This document shows, one piece after another, positions 19,411 to 26,093 of a DNA stretch of 64,000 bases. The DNA is taken from positions 1,178,001-1,242,000 of the forward strand of contig NZ_JAXOJT010000001.1 of assembly GCF_036663835.1 (NCBI RefSeq), in the 5' to 3' direction. This stretch comes from Sphingomonas sp. LT1P40. GTDB lineage: Bacteria; Pseudomonadota; Alphaproteobacteria; Sphingomonadales; Sphingomonadaceae. The notes beneath the pieces were generated by a model. The model saw only the letters and a list, made by a program, of their open reading frames with translations. It was not told the DNA's origin and did no database searches. Every line of letters begins with the position of its first letter. Position 1 is the stretch's first letter. The position numbers and the translations under genes are program-made.

Positions 19411-22400
19411 CTAACTCGCCAGCGCCAGCCTCGGCTGTTCGGTGGGTTTCAGCTCGGCGCGCACGATCCCCGCAAGCGCCTCGATCCGCGTCGCCAGTTC
19501 TCCGTCCAGCCGAAAATTGCGGCCCAGCACCAGTTCGGCCTCGCCACCGTCGGGCAGGGGCGCGTCGAGGATCACCTCGCACCGCCCGCCGCGTGCGTCG
19601 TCCAGCAATCGTGCGACGTCGGGCAACACCCCCGCCGCCTCCACCGCCAGCCGCAATGTCAGCCGCACGTCCTTGGCCATGGTCTCGAACGGCTGCACCT
19701 TGCGTACCGTAACGCGCGGCGTGTCCTCGCCGGCACGCCGATCCAGTTCGATCGTCAGCAATCCGCACCCGCCGACGCGCGACGCATCCTCCATCTCCTT
19801 GGCGGTATGCTCGTCGAAACAGGTGCAGGGCACCGTCCCGCTCGCATCGGACAGCGTCGCCATCATATATTTCTTGCCGCGCGCCGAAGTTCGCCAGCGC
19901 GCATCCTCGATCAGCGCGGCAATGGTCGCGCCCGCACGCCCGCCTTCGGCAATGTCGATTTCGCCCAGCGTCGCAATGCTGCGTGCCGCGTGGATGCGCG
20001 CAAGATGCTGATAGCGGTCGAGCGGATGCGCGGAAAAGAAGAAGCCGAACGCCTCCTTCTCCGCCTCGATCCGCTGACTCAGCGTCCAGCTGGCGCTTTT
20101 GGGGAGCTGGATCGCCGACCCCACCGGCTCGGATTCGCCGAACAGCCCGCCCTGCCCGCTGGTGCGGTTGGCGTGCGTGCGTTGCGCCACCGCCAGAATC
20201 GTTTCCGCCGCCATGTAAACAGCGGGCCGGTCTGGCGCGACGCTATCGAACGCCCCCGCCCCCGCCAGCGCCTCAACCTGCCGCTTGTTGAGGAGCCGTG
20301 GATCGACCCGCCTCGCAAAATCGTCGAGGCTCTGGAACCGCCCCGCATTCTCGCGCTCCTCGACGATCAGTTCCATCGCCTTTTCGCCGACGCCCTTCAG
20401 CCCCGCCAGCGCGTATCGCACCGCAAACCCGTCATCGACCGCCTCGACCGAGAATTCGGCATGGCTGGCGTTGATGTCGGGCGTCAGGCAAGCCGCCCCC
20501 AGCCGCTTCATATCCTCGACGAAGATCGCCAGTTTCTCGGTCTGGCCAAGCTCGAAGCACATCGATGCCGCGTAGAATTCGTGCGGATAATGCGCCTTGA
20601 ACCACGCCGTGTGGTACGCCAGCAGCGCATAGGCGGCCGCGTGCGACTTGTTGAAGCCATAGCCCGCGAACTTGTCGATCAAATCGAACAACTCGTTCGC
20701 CTTGCCCTCGGCGATATTGTTCAGTTTCGCGCAGCCCTCGACGAAGATCGCGCGCTGCGCATCCATCTCCGACTTGATCTTCTTGCCCATCGCCCGGCGC
20801 AACAGGTCCGCGCCGCCCAGCGAATAGCCGGCCAGGATCTGCGTGGCCTGCATCACCTGTTCCTGATAAACGAAGATGCCGTAGGTTTCCTTGAGGATGT
20901 CCTCCAGCAACGCGTGCGGATATTCGATCGGCTCCTGCCCCTGTTTGCGGCGTCCGAACATCGGGATGTTGTCCATCGGGCCGGGGCGATAGAGCGAGAC
21001 GAGCGCAATGATGTCGCCGAAATTGCTCGGCCGCACCGCTGTCAGCGTGCGCCGCATCCCTTCGGATTCCAGCTGGAACACGCCGACCGTGTCACCGCGC
21101 TGAAGCAATTCGTACACCGCCGGATCGTCCCAGCCGAGCGTCTCCAGGTCGATCGAAATGTTGCGTTCGGCCAGCAACTCGACGGCCTTTTGCAGCACCG
21201 AAAGTGTTTTCAGGCCAAGGAAATCGAACTTCACCAGCCCCGCACCCTCGACATATTTCATGTCGAATTGCGTGACCGGCATGTCCGATCGCGGATCGCG
21301 ATACAGCGGCACCAGTTCCGCCAGCGGCCGGTCGCCGATCACCACGCCCGCCGCGTGGGTCGAGCTGTGGCGCGGCAACCCCTCTAGCTTCATCGCCAGG
21401 TCGATCAGATGCCGGACCGCATCGTCGCCCTTATATTCGGCGTTGAACTCGTTCACCCCGTTCAGCGTGCGGGGCAGCGTCCACGGATCGGTCGGGTGGT
21501 TGGGCACCAGCTTCGCCAACCGGTCGATCTGACCATAGCTCATCTGGAGCACGCGCCCGGTGTCCTTCAGCACGGCGCGCGCCTTCATCGTCCCGAAGGT
21601 AATGATCTGCGCCACCTGATTGCGGCCGTATTTTGCCTGAACGTAACGGATTACTTCCCCACGCCGCGTTTCGCAGAAATCGATGTCGAAATCGGGCATC
21701 GACACGCGTTCCGGGTTCAGGAATCGCTCGAACAGCAGCCCCAGCGGGATTGGATCGAGATCGGTGATCGTCAGCGCCCAGGCGACCACCGAGCCCGCAC
21801 CCGAACCGCGCCCCGGACCCACCGGAATCCCGTTCGCCTTTGCCCATTTGATGAAGTCGGCAACGATCAGGAAATAGCCGGGGAATCCCATCTGGACGAT
21901 GACGTCGGTCTCGAAATCCAGCCGGTCGAAATACTCGGTGCGGCGCTCGGGATCGGTAATCCCCAGCTTCTCCAGCCGCGCTTCCAGCCCGGCGCGCGCA
22001 TCCTCACGCAACTGCGTCGCCTCGCCCGTCAGATCGCCAGCCAAGCTCGGCAGGATCGGCTTGCGATAGGGCGCGGCATAGGCACAGCGCTGTGCGACGA
22101 CGAGGGTGTTGTCGATCGCCTCCGGCAAATCGTCGAACAGCCGCTTCATCTCGCTCGCTGGCTTCACCCACGCATCGGGTGAGGAGCGCGCGCGTTCGTC
22201 GCTGGCGACATAGCACGACCCGGCAATGCACAGCATCGCGTCATGCGCTTCGTGAAACCCCGGCTCGGCGTAACAGGCCGGGTTGGTCGCCACGAGTGGC
22301 AGATTGCGGTCATAGGCCAGTTCGAGCAGCTTCGGCTCGGCCTTGCCCTCGACCTCATCCAGCCGCCGCACGATCTCGATATAGAGCCGGTCGCCGAACA

Positions 22401-22893
22401 GCCCTTGCAACCGGTCGGCATAGGCGAAAGCGGCGTCGTCCTGTTCCTCCGCGAACAACTGCGCCAGCGCGCCTTCCTTGCCAGCCGTCAGTGCGATCAG
22501 CCCGTCGCTGCGCCCCTCCAGCGCCGCGAACGACACATGCGCATCCTTTTCGATCGGCCGATCGAGATGCGCCATCGAGACGAGGTAACAGAGGTTCTGA
22601 TACCCAACTTCGTCCTGCGCAAACAACGCCAGCCAGTCCAGCGGCGGCGTCACGCCTTCCGGCACATCCGGACGCTCGACGCACAGCAAGGTGCCGACGA
22701 TCGGCTGCACCCCGGCCTTTTTCGCCGCATCCCCGAACGGCATCGCGCCGTACAGCCCGTTGCGGTCGCACAGCCCCGCGGCAGGAAAGCCCAGCTCGCG
22801 CGCGCGCGCCGCAATCGCCTTGGGCTCGATCGCCCCTTCGAGCATCGTGTAGGCGGAAAAGACACGGAGGGGCACGAAGCCGGAATGGGGCAT
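19411..22893 (-). CDS. dnaE: DNA polymerase III alpha subunit
   Basis: Replicative polymerase subunit of 1160 residues, normal for the DnaE1 type. The N-terminal PHP domain starts FVPLRVFSAYTMLEGAI. The polymerase active site is in GPGRGSGAGSVVAWAL and PDFDIDFCETRRGEVIRYV, which holds the catalytic aspartates. KKIKSEMDAQRAIFVEGC and the YGFNKSHAAAYALLAYHTAW fingers follow, then an HhH region and an OB-fold. It is distinguished from the error-prone DnaE2 by the YxxP-type start and gene context (no imuA or imuB nearby). The gene stands alone, with a repeat element upstream. Confidence 0.97.
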   Translation of the reverse strand: MPHSGFVPLRVFSAYTMLEGAIEPKAIAARARELGFPAAGLCDRNGLYGAMPFGDAAKKAGVQPIVGTLLCVERPDVPEGVTPPLDWLALFAQDEVGYQNLCYLVSMAHLDRPIEKDAHVSFAALEGRSDGLIALTAGKEGALAQLFAEEQDDAAFAYADRLQGLFGDRLYIEIVRRLDEVEGKAEPKLLELAYDRNLPLVATNPACYAEPGFHEAHDAMLCIAGSCYVASDERARSSPDAWVKPASEMKRLFDDLPEAIDNTLVVAQRCAYAAPYRKPILPSLAGDLTGEATQLREDARAGLEARLEKLGITDPERRTEYFDRLDFETDVIVQMGFPGYFLIVADFIKWAKANGIPVGPGRGSGAGSVVAWALTITDLDPIPLGLLFERFLNPERVSMPDFDIDFCETRRGEVIRYVQAKYGRNQVAQIITFGTMKARAVLKDTGRVLQMSYGQIDRLAKLVPNHPTDPWTLPRTLNGVNEFNAEYKGDDAVRHLIDLAMKLEGLPRHSSTHAAGVVIGDRPLAELVPLYRDPRSDMPVTQFDMKYVEGAGLVKFDFLGLKTLSVLQKAVELLAERNISIDLETLGWDDPAVYELLQRGDTVGVFQLESEGMRRTLTAVRPSNFGDIIALVSLYRPGPMDNIPMFGRRKQGQEPIEYPHALLEDILKETYGIFVYQEQVMQATQILAGYSLGGADLLRRAMGKKIKSEMDAQRAIFVEGCAKLNNIAEGKANELFDLIDKFAGYGFNKSHAAAYALLAYHTAWFKAHYPHEFYAASMCFELGQTEKLAIFVEDMKRLGAACLTPDINASHAEFSVEAVDDGFAVRYALAGLKGVGEKAMELIVEERENAGRFQSLDDFARRVDPRLLNKRQVEALAGAGAFDSVAPDRPAVYMAAETILAVAQRTHANRTSGQGGLFGESEPVGSAIQLPKSASWTLSQRIEAEKEAFGFFFSAHPLDRYQHLARIHAARSIATLGEIDIAEGGRAGATIAALIEDARWRTSARGKKYMMATLSDASGTVPCTCFDEHTAKEMEDASRVGGCGLLTIELDRRAGEDTPRVTVRKVQPFETMAKDVRLTLRLAVEAAGVLPDVARLLDDARGGRCEVILDAPLPDGGEAELVLGRNFRLDGELATRIEALAGIVRAELKPTEQPRLALAS

Positions 22894-23087: not shown

Positions 23088-23567
23088 TTAAAGCAACTTC
23101 TCGATATCCTTGGCGATATCCTCGGGCTTGGTCGTCGGGGCATAACGATCGACGACCTTACCGTCGCGGTTCACCAGGAACTTGGTGAAGTTCCACTTGA
23201 TCGCCTCCGACCCCAATATCCCAGGCGCTTCTTTTTTGAGGTGCCGGAACAGCGGCGCGGCATCGTCGCCGTTGACATCGACCTTGCCGAACACGGGAAA
23301 GGTCACGTCATAGGTCAGCGAACAGAAACTCGCTATTTCCGCCGCATCGCCCGGCTCCTGCGCGCCGAACTGATTGCACGGAAACCCCAGCACCGCGAAC
23401 CCGCGATCCTTGTCCTCCCGATAGAGCTTTTCCAGCCCCTCATATTGCGGCGTGAACCCGCATTTTGAGGCAACGTTGACGATCAGCAGCACTTGTCCGG
23501 CATAGGTCGACAGGTCTGTTTCGCTGCCATCGGCCTTCGTGACAGGAATGTCCGTGATAACGCTCAT
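23088..23567 (-). CDS. Glutathione peroxidase (cysteine type)
   Basis: A 159-residue thiol peroxidase of the GPx family that reduces hydroperoxides using thioredoxin or glutathione. NVASKCGFTPQYEGLE contains the peroxidatic cysteine (no selenocysteine), FPCNQFGAQEPG holds the resolving-type cysteine and the catalytic glutamine, and KWNFTKFLVNRDGKVV holds the catalytic tryptophan and asparagine. There is no signal peptide, so it is cytosolic. It starts 9 bases after the signal-peptidase-like gene and is probably the last gene of the lol operon. Confidence 0.93.
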   Translation of the reverse strand: MSVITDIPVTKADGSETDLSTYAGQVLLIVNVASKCGFTPQYEGLEKLYREDKDRGFAVLGFPCNQFGAQEPGDAAEIASFCSLTYDVTFPVFGKVDVNGDDAAPLFRHLKKEAPGILGSEAIKWNFTKFLVNRDGKVVDRYAPTTKPEDIAKDIEKLL

Positions 23568-23576
23568 CTTACCTCC

Positions 23577-24179
23577 CTAACCGCCGTCGATTTCCTCGGG
23601 CGGCACAATGCCATAGACATTCTCGAATGACACGAGCCCGCTTCCCCCGACGGGACCGGCTGGAAAACGGCTGTCCGCCGCATTGTCGCGATTGTCACCC
23701 AGCACGAACAGCCGCCTTGCAGGCACTGTCACGTCGGGAACATTGTCTCCCTGCGTCGGTTCGAGATCGAGCACGCGATGCGATTGCGCCTCTCCCGGAA
23801 GACGTTCGGTGCGCACCCGTGCCTCGCGCCCTTCGATGCTCAGCTTGCCCGCATCGGTCTGCGCGATCGGCTTGCCGTTGAGGATAACCACACCATCACG
23901 CATCCCGATCCGATCGCCTGGAAGTCCTGCGACTCGCATTATCCAGAACGAATCGCCGACCGAAAAGACCGCGATGTCGCCCCGTCGCAGTTCTGCGGGC
24001 GCTCGCTTTCGCGCAGTGATCGTCGTGCCGGACCGCAGCGTCGGCGCCATGCTTTCCGACACTGTACGCATCTTCCGGAACGGGAGCCCGTCATTCAGGA
24101 CGAGCACCGCCGCGCCATAGCCGGCCACCGCGAGGATCAAAACGATCACAGCCAGCAGCAATCCGGTGCGCAGTTTCAC
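23577..24179 (-). CDS. Signal peptidase I (S26) homologue lacking the catalytic lysine
   Basis: A 200-residue membrane-anchored member of the type I signal peptidase family. It has one N-terminal transmembrane helix ([20 protein letters not shown]), a box-B motif SESMAPTL with the nucleophile serine at residue 43, and box [12 protein letters not shown]. Box D, which normally reads KRVxGLPGD with the general-base lysine (Lys145 in E. coli), reads MRVAGLPGD here, so residue 81 is methionine. Without that lysine the usual Ser-Lys dyad is incomplete, and activity is doubtful. It starts with a GTG overlapping the stop of lolD. It may be a pseudoenzyme, or use another base; this is inference. Confidence 0.85.
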
Positions 24180-24850
24180 TCCAGCACACCCTCGTGCAAC
24201 CGCATCACGCGGTCCATCTTCGCTGCCAGCCGCTCGTTATGCGTGGCGATCAGTGCCGCCGCGCCTTCGCCGCGAACCAGCCGCAACAGTTCGGCCAGAA
24301 CGATGTCCGCCGTCTTTTCGTCCAAGTTGCCGGTCGGTTCGTCCGCCAGCACAAGGTTAGGCCGGTTGGCGAGCGCACGCGCCACGGCGACCCGCTGTTG
24401 CTCACCGCCCGACAGCTGGCTTGGCCGGTGCGTCAACCGCTCGCCCAGTCCCAAAGCCGTCAGTAAGGATTCCGCCCGCGCCCGCGCATCGGCCAGCGTG
24501 GCATTCTGGATCAGCTGCGGCAGCTCGACATTCTCGACCGCGTTGAAATCCGGCAGCAGATGATGAAACTGATAGACGAAGCCGAGCTTGTCGCGCCGGG
24601 TGATCGTGCGTTCATGACTCTCCAGCTTGGACGCCTCGACACCCGAGATGCGGATCGATCCCTCGAACCCGCCCTCCAGCAGTCCGACCGCTTGCAACAA
24701 GGTCGATTTGCCCGAACCGGACGGGCCGAGGAGCGCGACGATCTCACCCGGCTCCACGGTCAGGTTGACCCCGCGCAGCACATGGATCGTCACCTCGCCC
24801 TGTACGAACGCGCGGCACAGGCCCGTGGTCTGGAGGACAGGCTCACTCAT
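24176..24850 (-). CDS. lolD: Lipoprotein-releasing ABC transporter ATPase LolD
   Basis: ATP-binding subunit (224 residues) of the LolCDE-type complex that extracts lipoproteins from the inner membrane. Walker A is GPSGSGKST, the Q-loop is [20 protein letters not shown] (a hallmark of LolD/MacB-type ATPases), the signature is [15 protein letters not shown], and Walker B is [16 protein letters not shown]. Start [10 protein letters not shown] at 24850 overlaps the permease stop by eight bases. Its stop overlaps the next gene's GTG. A longer upstream frame is within the permease gene and unlikely. Confidence 0.95.
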
Positions 24851-26093
24851 AACGCAACACCTGCACCGGATCGGTGCTTGCCGCCTTGAACGCCGGGTAC
24901 AGCGTCGCAAGGAAGCTGAAGCCCAGCGCCATCAACGCGATTCCGGCAATCTCGACCGGATCGGTCTTGGACGGCAATTCGGTCAGATAGCGCATCGACG
25001 GATCCCAGATTTCCTGCCCCGTCAGGAACCCCAGCACGGTCAGCACGCCCTGCCGGAAATAGAGCAGGATGAACCCCAGGATCAGTCCGGCGACGATCCC
25101 CAGCGATCCGATCACCGTTCCCACCGTCACGAAAATCTTGATGAGGCCGCTGCGCGTCGCCCCCATCGTCCGCAATATCGCGATGTCGCGGGTCTTGGCG
25201 CGCACCAGCATGATGAGCGACGACAGGATGTTGAACACCGCCACCAAAATCAGGATCGACAGCACGGTGAATGTCACCAGCCGGTCCACCGCCAGCGCCT
25301 CGAACAACGTCGCATTCAGCGTGCGCCAGTCGGTCAGTTGGCCATATGCCGCAACCTTCTGCGCCAGCGGACGCAGGATTTCGCCGACCTGATCCGGGTC
25401 GTTCGTGTCGATCTCCACCATCCCGACCGCATCGCCCATCAGCAACAGGGTCTGGGCGTCCTCCATCGGCATGACCACGAACGCCTTGTCATAGTCATAG
25501 ACGCCGACCTCGAAGATCGCGGCAATGCGGTAGGACACGATCCGCGGTACGGTCCCGAACGGGCTGGTCAGCCCCTGTGGACTGAGCAGCGACACCGTGC
25601 TGCCCACCGAAGCGCCCAGCGATTGCGCCAGCCGCGACCCCACCGCGACGCACTCGCAATCGGGTGACAGTTGTTTCAGGTCGCCCAGTACGACATTGCG
25701 ATTAAGCGTCGGGTTGGCGCGAATGTCGGACACGTTCATCCCGCGCACCAGCACGCCCTCGACGCGACCCTGAAAGCTGGCCATCAGCGGCTGCTCGATC
25801 AGCGGCGTCGCGCTCACAACGCCGGGTGTCTTGCGCGCTTCGTCGGCAATCTCGCGCCATCCGCGCAGCTGGCCGCCATAGCCCTGCACCACCGCATGGC
25901 CGTTCAGCCCGGTGATCTTGTCGAACAGCTCGGCGCGAAACCCGTTCATCACGCTCATCACGATGACCAGAGCGGCGACGCCCAGCATCACCGCGACCAG
26001 GCTGATCGCAGCCACCAGGAAGATGAAAGCCTCGCCCCGCCCGGGTAACAGGTAGCGGCGCGCGATCATCCGTTCATATCGGGAAAGCAACAT
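24843..26093 (-). CDS. Lipoprotein-releasing ABC transporter permease, LolC/LolE family
   Basis: A 416-residue permease with one N-terminal transmembrane helix, a large periplasmic domain and three C-terminal helices ([20 protein letters not shown] is the first of these). The opening [19 protein letters not shown] and the [17 protein letters not shown] segment are typical of LolC/LolE. Only one such permease is in the operon, as in many alphaproteobacteria, where it probably forms a homodimer with LolD. Start at 26093 with GGCGGGG upstream; the frame open to 26198 is rejected as too long. It is the first gene of the lol operon. Confidence 0.94.

Follow-up and report, generated by a model that had tools for sequence, protein, structure and literature searches.

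The short gene that follows lolD in the window, by which I mean the whole stretch of 64,000 nucleotides of Sphingomonas sp. LT1P40 DNA analysed here, encodes a signal-peptidase-like protein, hereafter SPL, that retains the nucleophilic serine of type I signal peptidases and carries methionine in place of their catalytic lysine. SPL is probably a membrane-anchored pseudo-signal peptidase that would bind peptides and not cleave them. It would be a single-pass inner-membrane protein with its S26 domain in the periplasm, and the cleft of this domain may still accommodate extended peptides, either the C-regions of signal peptides or other membrane-proximal segments. Deprived of a general base, Ser43 would be inactive, and the protein would hold, shield or present the peptide instead of cutting it. 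SPL belongs to a paralogue family, known to date from Sphingomonadaceae-like genomes and from metagenomes, that appears to have lost one catalytic residue many times with much of the remaining core kept.

The SPL reading frame runs from a GTG start to a TAG stop on the minus strand (Table 1), the strand having been left unstated in the preliminary description. Two profiles place the protein in the family: the peptidase S26 domain PF10502 (92.1 bits, against a cut-off of 22.9) and the type I signal peptidase model TIGR02227 (91.5 bits, against a cut-off of 47). Box B reads SESMAP, with Ser43 at the nucleophile position, and Met81 is aligned to the K of YVKRIIGLPGD in 4nv4 and of YVKRVIGVPGD in 4wvh; the E. 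coli box D, for comparison, is YIKRAVGLPGD. Codons and alignments thus confirm what had been read from the letters, namely that Ser43 and box E are kept and that Met replaces Lys in box D. At the base position, held by Met81, SPL has neither the general-base lysine of box D nor a histidine of the SEC11 type. The scaffold residues of the type I enzymes, R82, G161, D162, R164, D169, S170 and R171 (query numbering), are all present. In an AlphaFold2 model built on 27 sequences, residues 166-178 have a pLDDT below 50. Third-position GC content is 0.71 in SPL and 0.74-0.84 in its neighbours, a difference that neither proves nor excludes transfer.

Table 1. Features of the SPL region, in window positions
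Feature	Positions	Strand	Remarks
SPL	23577..24179	-	200 aa; 4-base overlap with lolD
Predicted N-terminal membrane helix, SPL residues 2-28	24096..24176	-	AlphaFold2 helix, block pLDDT 74-90; hydrophobic by inspection
SPL codon 43, AGC: Ser at the nucleophile place (E. coli Ser90)	24051..24053	-	
SPL codon 81, ATG: Met at the catalytic base place (E. coli Lys145)	23937..23939	-	
SPL box E, residues 161-171	23667..23699	-	Ala167 is the counterpart of E. coli Ser278
lolD, lipoprotein-releasing ABC transporter ATPase	24176..24850	-	likely ATG 24850; ORF to 24910
lolC/E-type permease	24843..26093	-	likely ATG 26093 by inspection; ORF to 26198
Gpx, glutathione peroxidase family	23088..23567	-	PF00255; start 10 bases past the SPL stop
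dnaE-like gene, downstream landmark of the lol cluster	19411..22893	-	presumed dnaE

Codon 81 is a single base away from AAG. A sequencing slip or chance was rejected as the source of Met81, since lysine is absent from 24 of 27 close orthologues and from 13 of 14 lol-linked members, and a frameshift or annotation artefact is ruled out by the intact, conserved reading frames.

A PF10502 search of the window's genome finds three S26 genes, whose dyad states (residues at the places of Ser43 and Met81) are S/K, S/K and S/M. One S/K gene, L001 on contig 2, adjoins the ribonuclease III gene rnc and an era-like GTPase gene; the other, L002, lies on the same contig in a separate neighbourhood, beside acpS-type and pdxJ-type genes. 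Both rnc/era and acpS/pdxJ are usual settings of lepB. The housekeeping lepB that had been presumed to exist elsewhere is therefore present in two intact copies, which rules out SPL as the genome's sole signal peptidase and means that general secretion need not rely on it. Unlike the LepBs, SPL is short, lacks their long loop before RGD and does not lie beside rnc or acpS.

The 27 nearest proteins, SPL included, are 200-211 aa long and 47-67% identical to the query. Their residues 43 and 81 are S/Q in 14, S/M in 10, S/K in 2 and N/K in 1, so that position 81 is Gln in 14, Met in 10 and Lys in 3, one of the Lys members having lost Ser. The earlier proposal of a non-cleaving pseudoenzyme draws support from the prevalence of non-lysine residues among these orthologues (24/27), from purifying selection on the gene, from the two LepBs and from the lack of a conserved substitute base; it does not hold uniformly, since P0008 and P0009 combine Ser with Lys, and orthologues with Lys had been named in advance as an observation that would speak against it. 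These two are among 71 members of the wider family that have both residues and count against this reading. P0008 nests among Met forms in a tree of 95 rows; P0009 is outside that tree. Several of these proteins bear the database name signal peptidase I, a name that may be wrong for much of SPL's family.

SPL might still be an active peptidase, either through a general base other than the counterpart of Lys145 or by a substrate-assisted mechanism. Ser43 and most motif residues of boxes C to E are kept, as this would require, and a relative in genome G580 has His at the base place, as does the human enzyme; the eukaryotic signal peptidase is of the Ser-His type, with His as base, according to PMC12984324. 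SPL resembles SEC11 in belonging to the same superfamily and in having a residue other than Lys at the base place, but its Met is not a base. Across the orthologue clade (30 rows, residues 30-193) no Lys/His column is conserved that could stand in for the lost lysine; the highest Lys/His frequencies are 0.60 (residue 103) and 0.57 (residue 134). His134 was rejected as a replacement base because Lys/His there is untied to the loss of Lys: its frequency is 57% in the orthologue clade, 91% in Ser-only, 100% in Lys-only and 65% in S/K forms. None of Met, Gln, Gly, Ala, Ser and Thr can act as a general base, Lys145 mutants of E. coli LepB are inactive, and 91 family members have lost Ser instead. 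Retained peptidase activity is thus very improbable.

In the 95-row tree, computed without the dyad columns, 81 rows including SPL are set apart from 14 canonical LepB rows by a branch of 0.71 with an SH-aLRT of 99, a support that is less safe on long branches in a quick search of hand-picked rows (L013 and L036 are missing). SPL does not group with canonical LepB in this tree; its side contains SPL and its kin, a set of longer proteins (about 300 aa) and a group that has only the Lys. A rougher FastTree tree of 370 rows was made from 63 of 70 locus ORFs, with mechanically called starts, and 307 proteins, leaving out L003, L012 (the window itself) and the ORFs of at least 460 aa L013, L030, L036, L040 and L048. 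The 307 proteins were drawn from the best 120 of 2708, of 935 and of 4059 matches above the threshold, mostly with no organism recorded, and do not amount to a census. The family clade of this tree comprises 338 rows, with a base support of only 85 and five doubtfully placed locus rows (L009, L011, L020, L022, L067). Its states are S/K in 71, S/x in 165, x/K in 91 and x/x in 8, x being any other residue; three further rows are gapped at one of the dyad columns and were left uncounted as unreadable. Ser or Lys is therefore absent from 264 of the 335 readable members and both are absent from 8, while the rows outside the clade are S/K without exception (32/32).

Two broader searches delimit the phenomenon. 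Among the best 30 of many more loci matched class-wide by a Lys-less profile, all 29 besides the window's are S/K, 28 of them in other families and one, G041, in the same family. An order-wide search with P0028, from which 29 loci were read, gave 27 S/K loci. Every one of the 19 loci outside the window's family is S/K, as are 8 of the 10 within it, G580 and G348 being the two that differ. Among the genomes examined, the broken dyad is confined to the window's family, the organisms behind the metagenome proteins being mostly unassigned.

Outside the dyad, 19 of the 29 other motif positions are at least 97% identical within the 338-row clade. Met44 is found in 338/338 rows, Arg82, Asp162 and Arg164 each in 337/338, and Asp169, Ser170 and Arg171 each in 335/338. 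The ten remaining positions are less conserved, among them S41 (254/338), P87 (236/338) and the place of E. coli Ser278 (Ser in 289, Ala in 47). None of these three varies in the 32 rows outside the clade. Ser278 helps to hold the catalytic lysine in E. coli, according to PMC4049620. In comparison with E. coli LepB (S26, TIGR02227), SPL thus lacks the catalytic Lys and also has Ala at the counterpart of Ser278. The variation at these three places indicates that the neighbourhood of the active site is somewhat relaxed beyond the dyad, which weakens the pseudo-signal peptidase reading and strengthens the rival view that SPL is a weakly constrained, decaying paralogue, LepB doing the work, catalysis having been lost by drift and the family being on its way to vanishing.

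In ten pairs of lol-linked SPL genes, NG86 dN/dS is 0.17-0.46, as compared with 0.01-0.22 for lolD in the same pairs; these values are rough, since six of the ten SPL pairs have a dS above 1, and L078 was read from an internal alignment start over 188 codons. The SPL/LolD ratio of dN/dS lies between 1.8 and 4.7 in nine pairs and reaches 22 in the pair L125/L128, where LolD scarcely changes. SPL is maintained by purifying selection, under a looser constraint than lolD. This excess over LolD is what decay would produce, as are the relaxation of S41 and P87, the many independent losses, the apparent return of Lys in P0008 and the patchy presence of the gene, with 14 lol-linked members found in 295 genomes, of which the 30 best loci were read. 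However, the reading frames are intact across deep divergence, dN/dS is well under 1 and most of the motif core is nearly invariant. Moreover, once one dyad residue has gone, its partner is in most cases retained, a tendency that drift would leave unexplained (this holds by parsimony; an independent-pairs test is non-significant). Decay is thus rather unlikely to account for the family.

The distribution of the losses deserves a closer description. Eight double losses are seen, against about 47 expected under independence (99 non-Ser x 173 non-Lys / 367 readable rows), a contrast that the relatedness of the rows inflates. Parsimony assigns 22 losses of Ser to branches that bear Lys and 6 to branches that lack it (p ~0.001), although the latter account for about half the tree length on which Ser is present. 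When gains are made costlier, the Ser losses become 35-40 versus 4-6, with a smaller p, and parsimony over the whole tree agrees (24 versus 4). The independent-pairs test leans the same way without reaching significance (median p 0.125), and a matching bias for the loss of Lys is non-significant (p 0.07 to 0.27). The mutual exclusion of Ser and Lys loss is the new part of this analysis and a good lead, for which the phylogenetic support is mixed. It invites a bolder hypothesis, possible although I hold it doubtful: a Sphingomonadaceae family of S26 fold would have been selected for not cutting, its members serving in the envelope to chaperone signal peptides and lipoprotein N termini or to act as decoys for them. 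Either Ser or Lys would have been hit many times, and rarely both, because the remaining residue belongs to the peptide-holding site; the short form would be tied to the lolD operon, and some relatives would by now be lipoproteins themselves.

The coexistence of Ser-only and Lys-only forms could also be taken to mean that SPL is a split or regulatory subunit with LepB or a Lys-only relative as its partner, acting either as a dominant-negative competitor or by swapping an arm into a shared active site. An arm-swapped dimer is within the capability of SipA (4k8w; PMC4049620). Yet the window's genome, with its S/K, S/K and S/M genes, offers no Lys-only partner, and such a pairing is most improbable.

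Non-cleaving homologues of signal peptidase are already known from Gram-positives. In Staphylococcus aureus, SpsA is a dyad-broken paralogue that exists beside an active signal peptidase and has lost both residues. SipA (LepA), a pilus assembly factor of Streptococcus pyogenes, keeps the cleft and is devoid of peptidase activity; peptide binding was proposed for it, and pull-downs yielded no partner, according to PMC4049620. Peptide contacts in SipA, again in the absence of the dyad, are described in PMC12984324. SipA works without the dyad and so sets a precedent for a non-cleaving S26 fold, which SPL resembles in combining this fold with a broken dyad. The two differ in that SipA serves pili and has neither residue (Asp48 and Gly85 stand in their places), whereas SPL keeps Ser, comes from a Gram-negative with a lolD/gpx neighbourhood, and belongs to a large family in which either residue is lost. 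In the literature, as covered by titles and the openings of abstracts, with subscription papers mostly outside that scope, neither a dyad-broken S26 family in Sphingomonadales nor an S26 protein tied to lolD was found. A Gram-negative family in which one or the other dyad residue has been lost again and again would provide a natural series for studying roles of the S26 cleft besides cutting. It could also be used to ask whether any protein binds signal peptides or lipoprotein N termini on the way from Sec/LspA to Lol.

The preliminary description had considered SPL to be translationally coupled to lolD, itself part of lipoprotein export, and had suggested a helper in lipoprotein or signal-peptide handling. 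The neighbours are as named: TIGR02211 is the best family for lolD (254.7 bits, yet under the strict cut-off of 307.75), and TIGR02212 matches the permease above its cut-off (376.9 bits, over 362.45). The overlap is real, the GTG of SPL occupying 24177-24179 and the TGA of lolD 24176-24178. Across 295 genomes of the genus, that of the window among them, a search of which only the 30 best loci were read for linkage gave three close orthologues (54-63% identity) and 22 further loci at 40-48%. At 13 of these 25 nearest loci (L042-L066) lolD is close to the SPL gene, which encodes 200-242 aa in twelve cases and, with a mechanically called start, 298 aa in L062; at the other 12, whose ORFs are of at least 267 aa, no lol gene occurs within the 3.5 kb read. 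With the window, the lol-linked members are 14 (L042, L043, L044, L045, L046, L052, L054, L056, L057, L059, L061, L062 and L063 being the others), and their states are S/M 3, N/K 1, S/T 1, S/D 1, S/G 4 and S/A 4. Of the 14, 13 lack Lys and none has an intact dyad.

As to the slot itself, 80 lol regions (L072-L151) were inspected. SPL lies between lolD and gpx or dnaE in 12 of them, a proportion that is not a frequency, since G290, G269, G352 and G348 were added as known carriers and others come from the top of a similarity list. In the other 68, lolD is present and SPL undetected, so that the association with lolCD is not constant. The next gene detected past lolD, from which unprofiled ORFs can separate it, is Gpx in 37 regions, a GNAT acetyltransferase (PF13302) in 28, SPL in 10 and dnaE in 5. 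The slot is therefore variable, occupied by SPL, the acetyltransferase or further short ORFs whose order differs between regions. Judged by alignment starts, the 4-base overlap with lolD is found for 9 of 10 SPL (the tenth alignment begins inside the gene), 24 of 37 Gpx and 23 of 28 GNAT genes, which makes the coupling a property of the slot, not of SPL.

Some relatives may themselves be lipoproteins. By a simple pattern, five short ones (P0028, P0030, P0034, P0054, P0067) have a lipobox-like N terminus, the same pattern also matching apparent transmembrane Cys residues in P0083, P0146, P0149, P0163 and P0170. A similar N terminus was recognized by eye in the G580 protein (L153, the ORF part beginning MAAPHRT). 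The base-position residues of these six are, in the same order, T, S, S, M, L and H, with Lys in none. Five of the six cluster together in the 95-row tree and P0054 stands apart. The window's SPL has LAVAGY where P0028 has LAVAGC. To judge from these N termini, the lipobox-bearing side branch of the family probably consists of lipoproteins. The G580 protein presents a candidate Ser-His pair.

A special case of the peptide-binding pseudo-signal peptidase can be derived from these data, in which SPL would be a dedicated lipoprotein-export factor, capturing pro- or apolipoproteins by their N-terminal segments for delivery to the co-translated LolCDE. The proximity of lolD at about half of the nearest genus loci, the overlap in the SPL-adjacent regions and the lipobox-like side branch would all agree with it. 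So would the sharing of the lolD slot by several deep subclades, which suggests that the linkage is probably old. The same overlap in Gpx and GNAT genes, the variability of the slot, the many lol regions in which SPL is undetected and the 12 longer members with no lol gene nearby speak against it. The lol link, old as it probably is, therefore argues only weakly for a role in lipoprotein export; of the earlier reading, the overlap with lolD stands and the lipoprotein role is weak. I consider such a dedicated factor unlikely.

Three minor observations were made on the lol regions and their surroundings. In another genus (G112), the interval between lolD and dnaE holds an S/K member of the family, L014, encoded on the other strand. 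In the matched LolC/E permease stretch of each of G414, G170, G228, G257 and G218 there is one stop codon, which may be due to the choice of start site, to an error or to a gene that is truly broken. Finally, the GNAT genes that follow lolD in L133 (1918-3018) and L143 (lol-oriented 1918-2877) contain in-frame repeated segments such as PPPFALSEVEGPGTAQGLRLRSARTE, in a repeat block that splits the GNAT domain and resembles a protein-coding repeat insertion.
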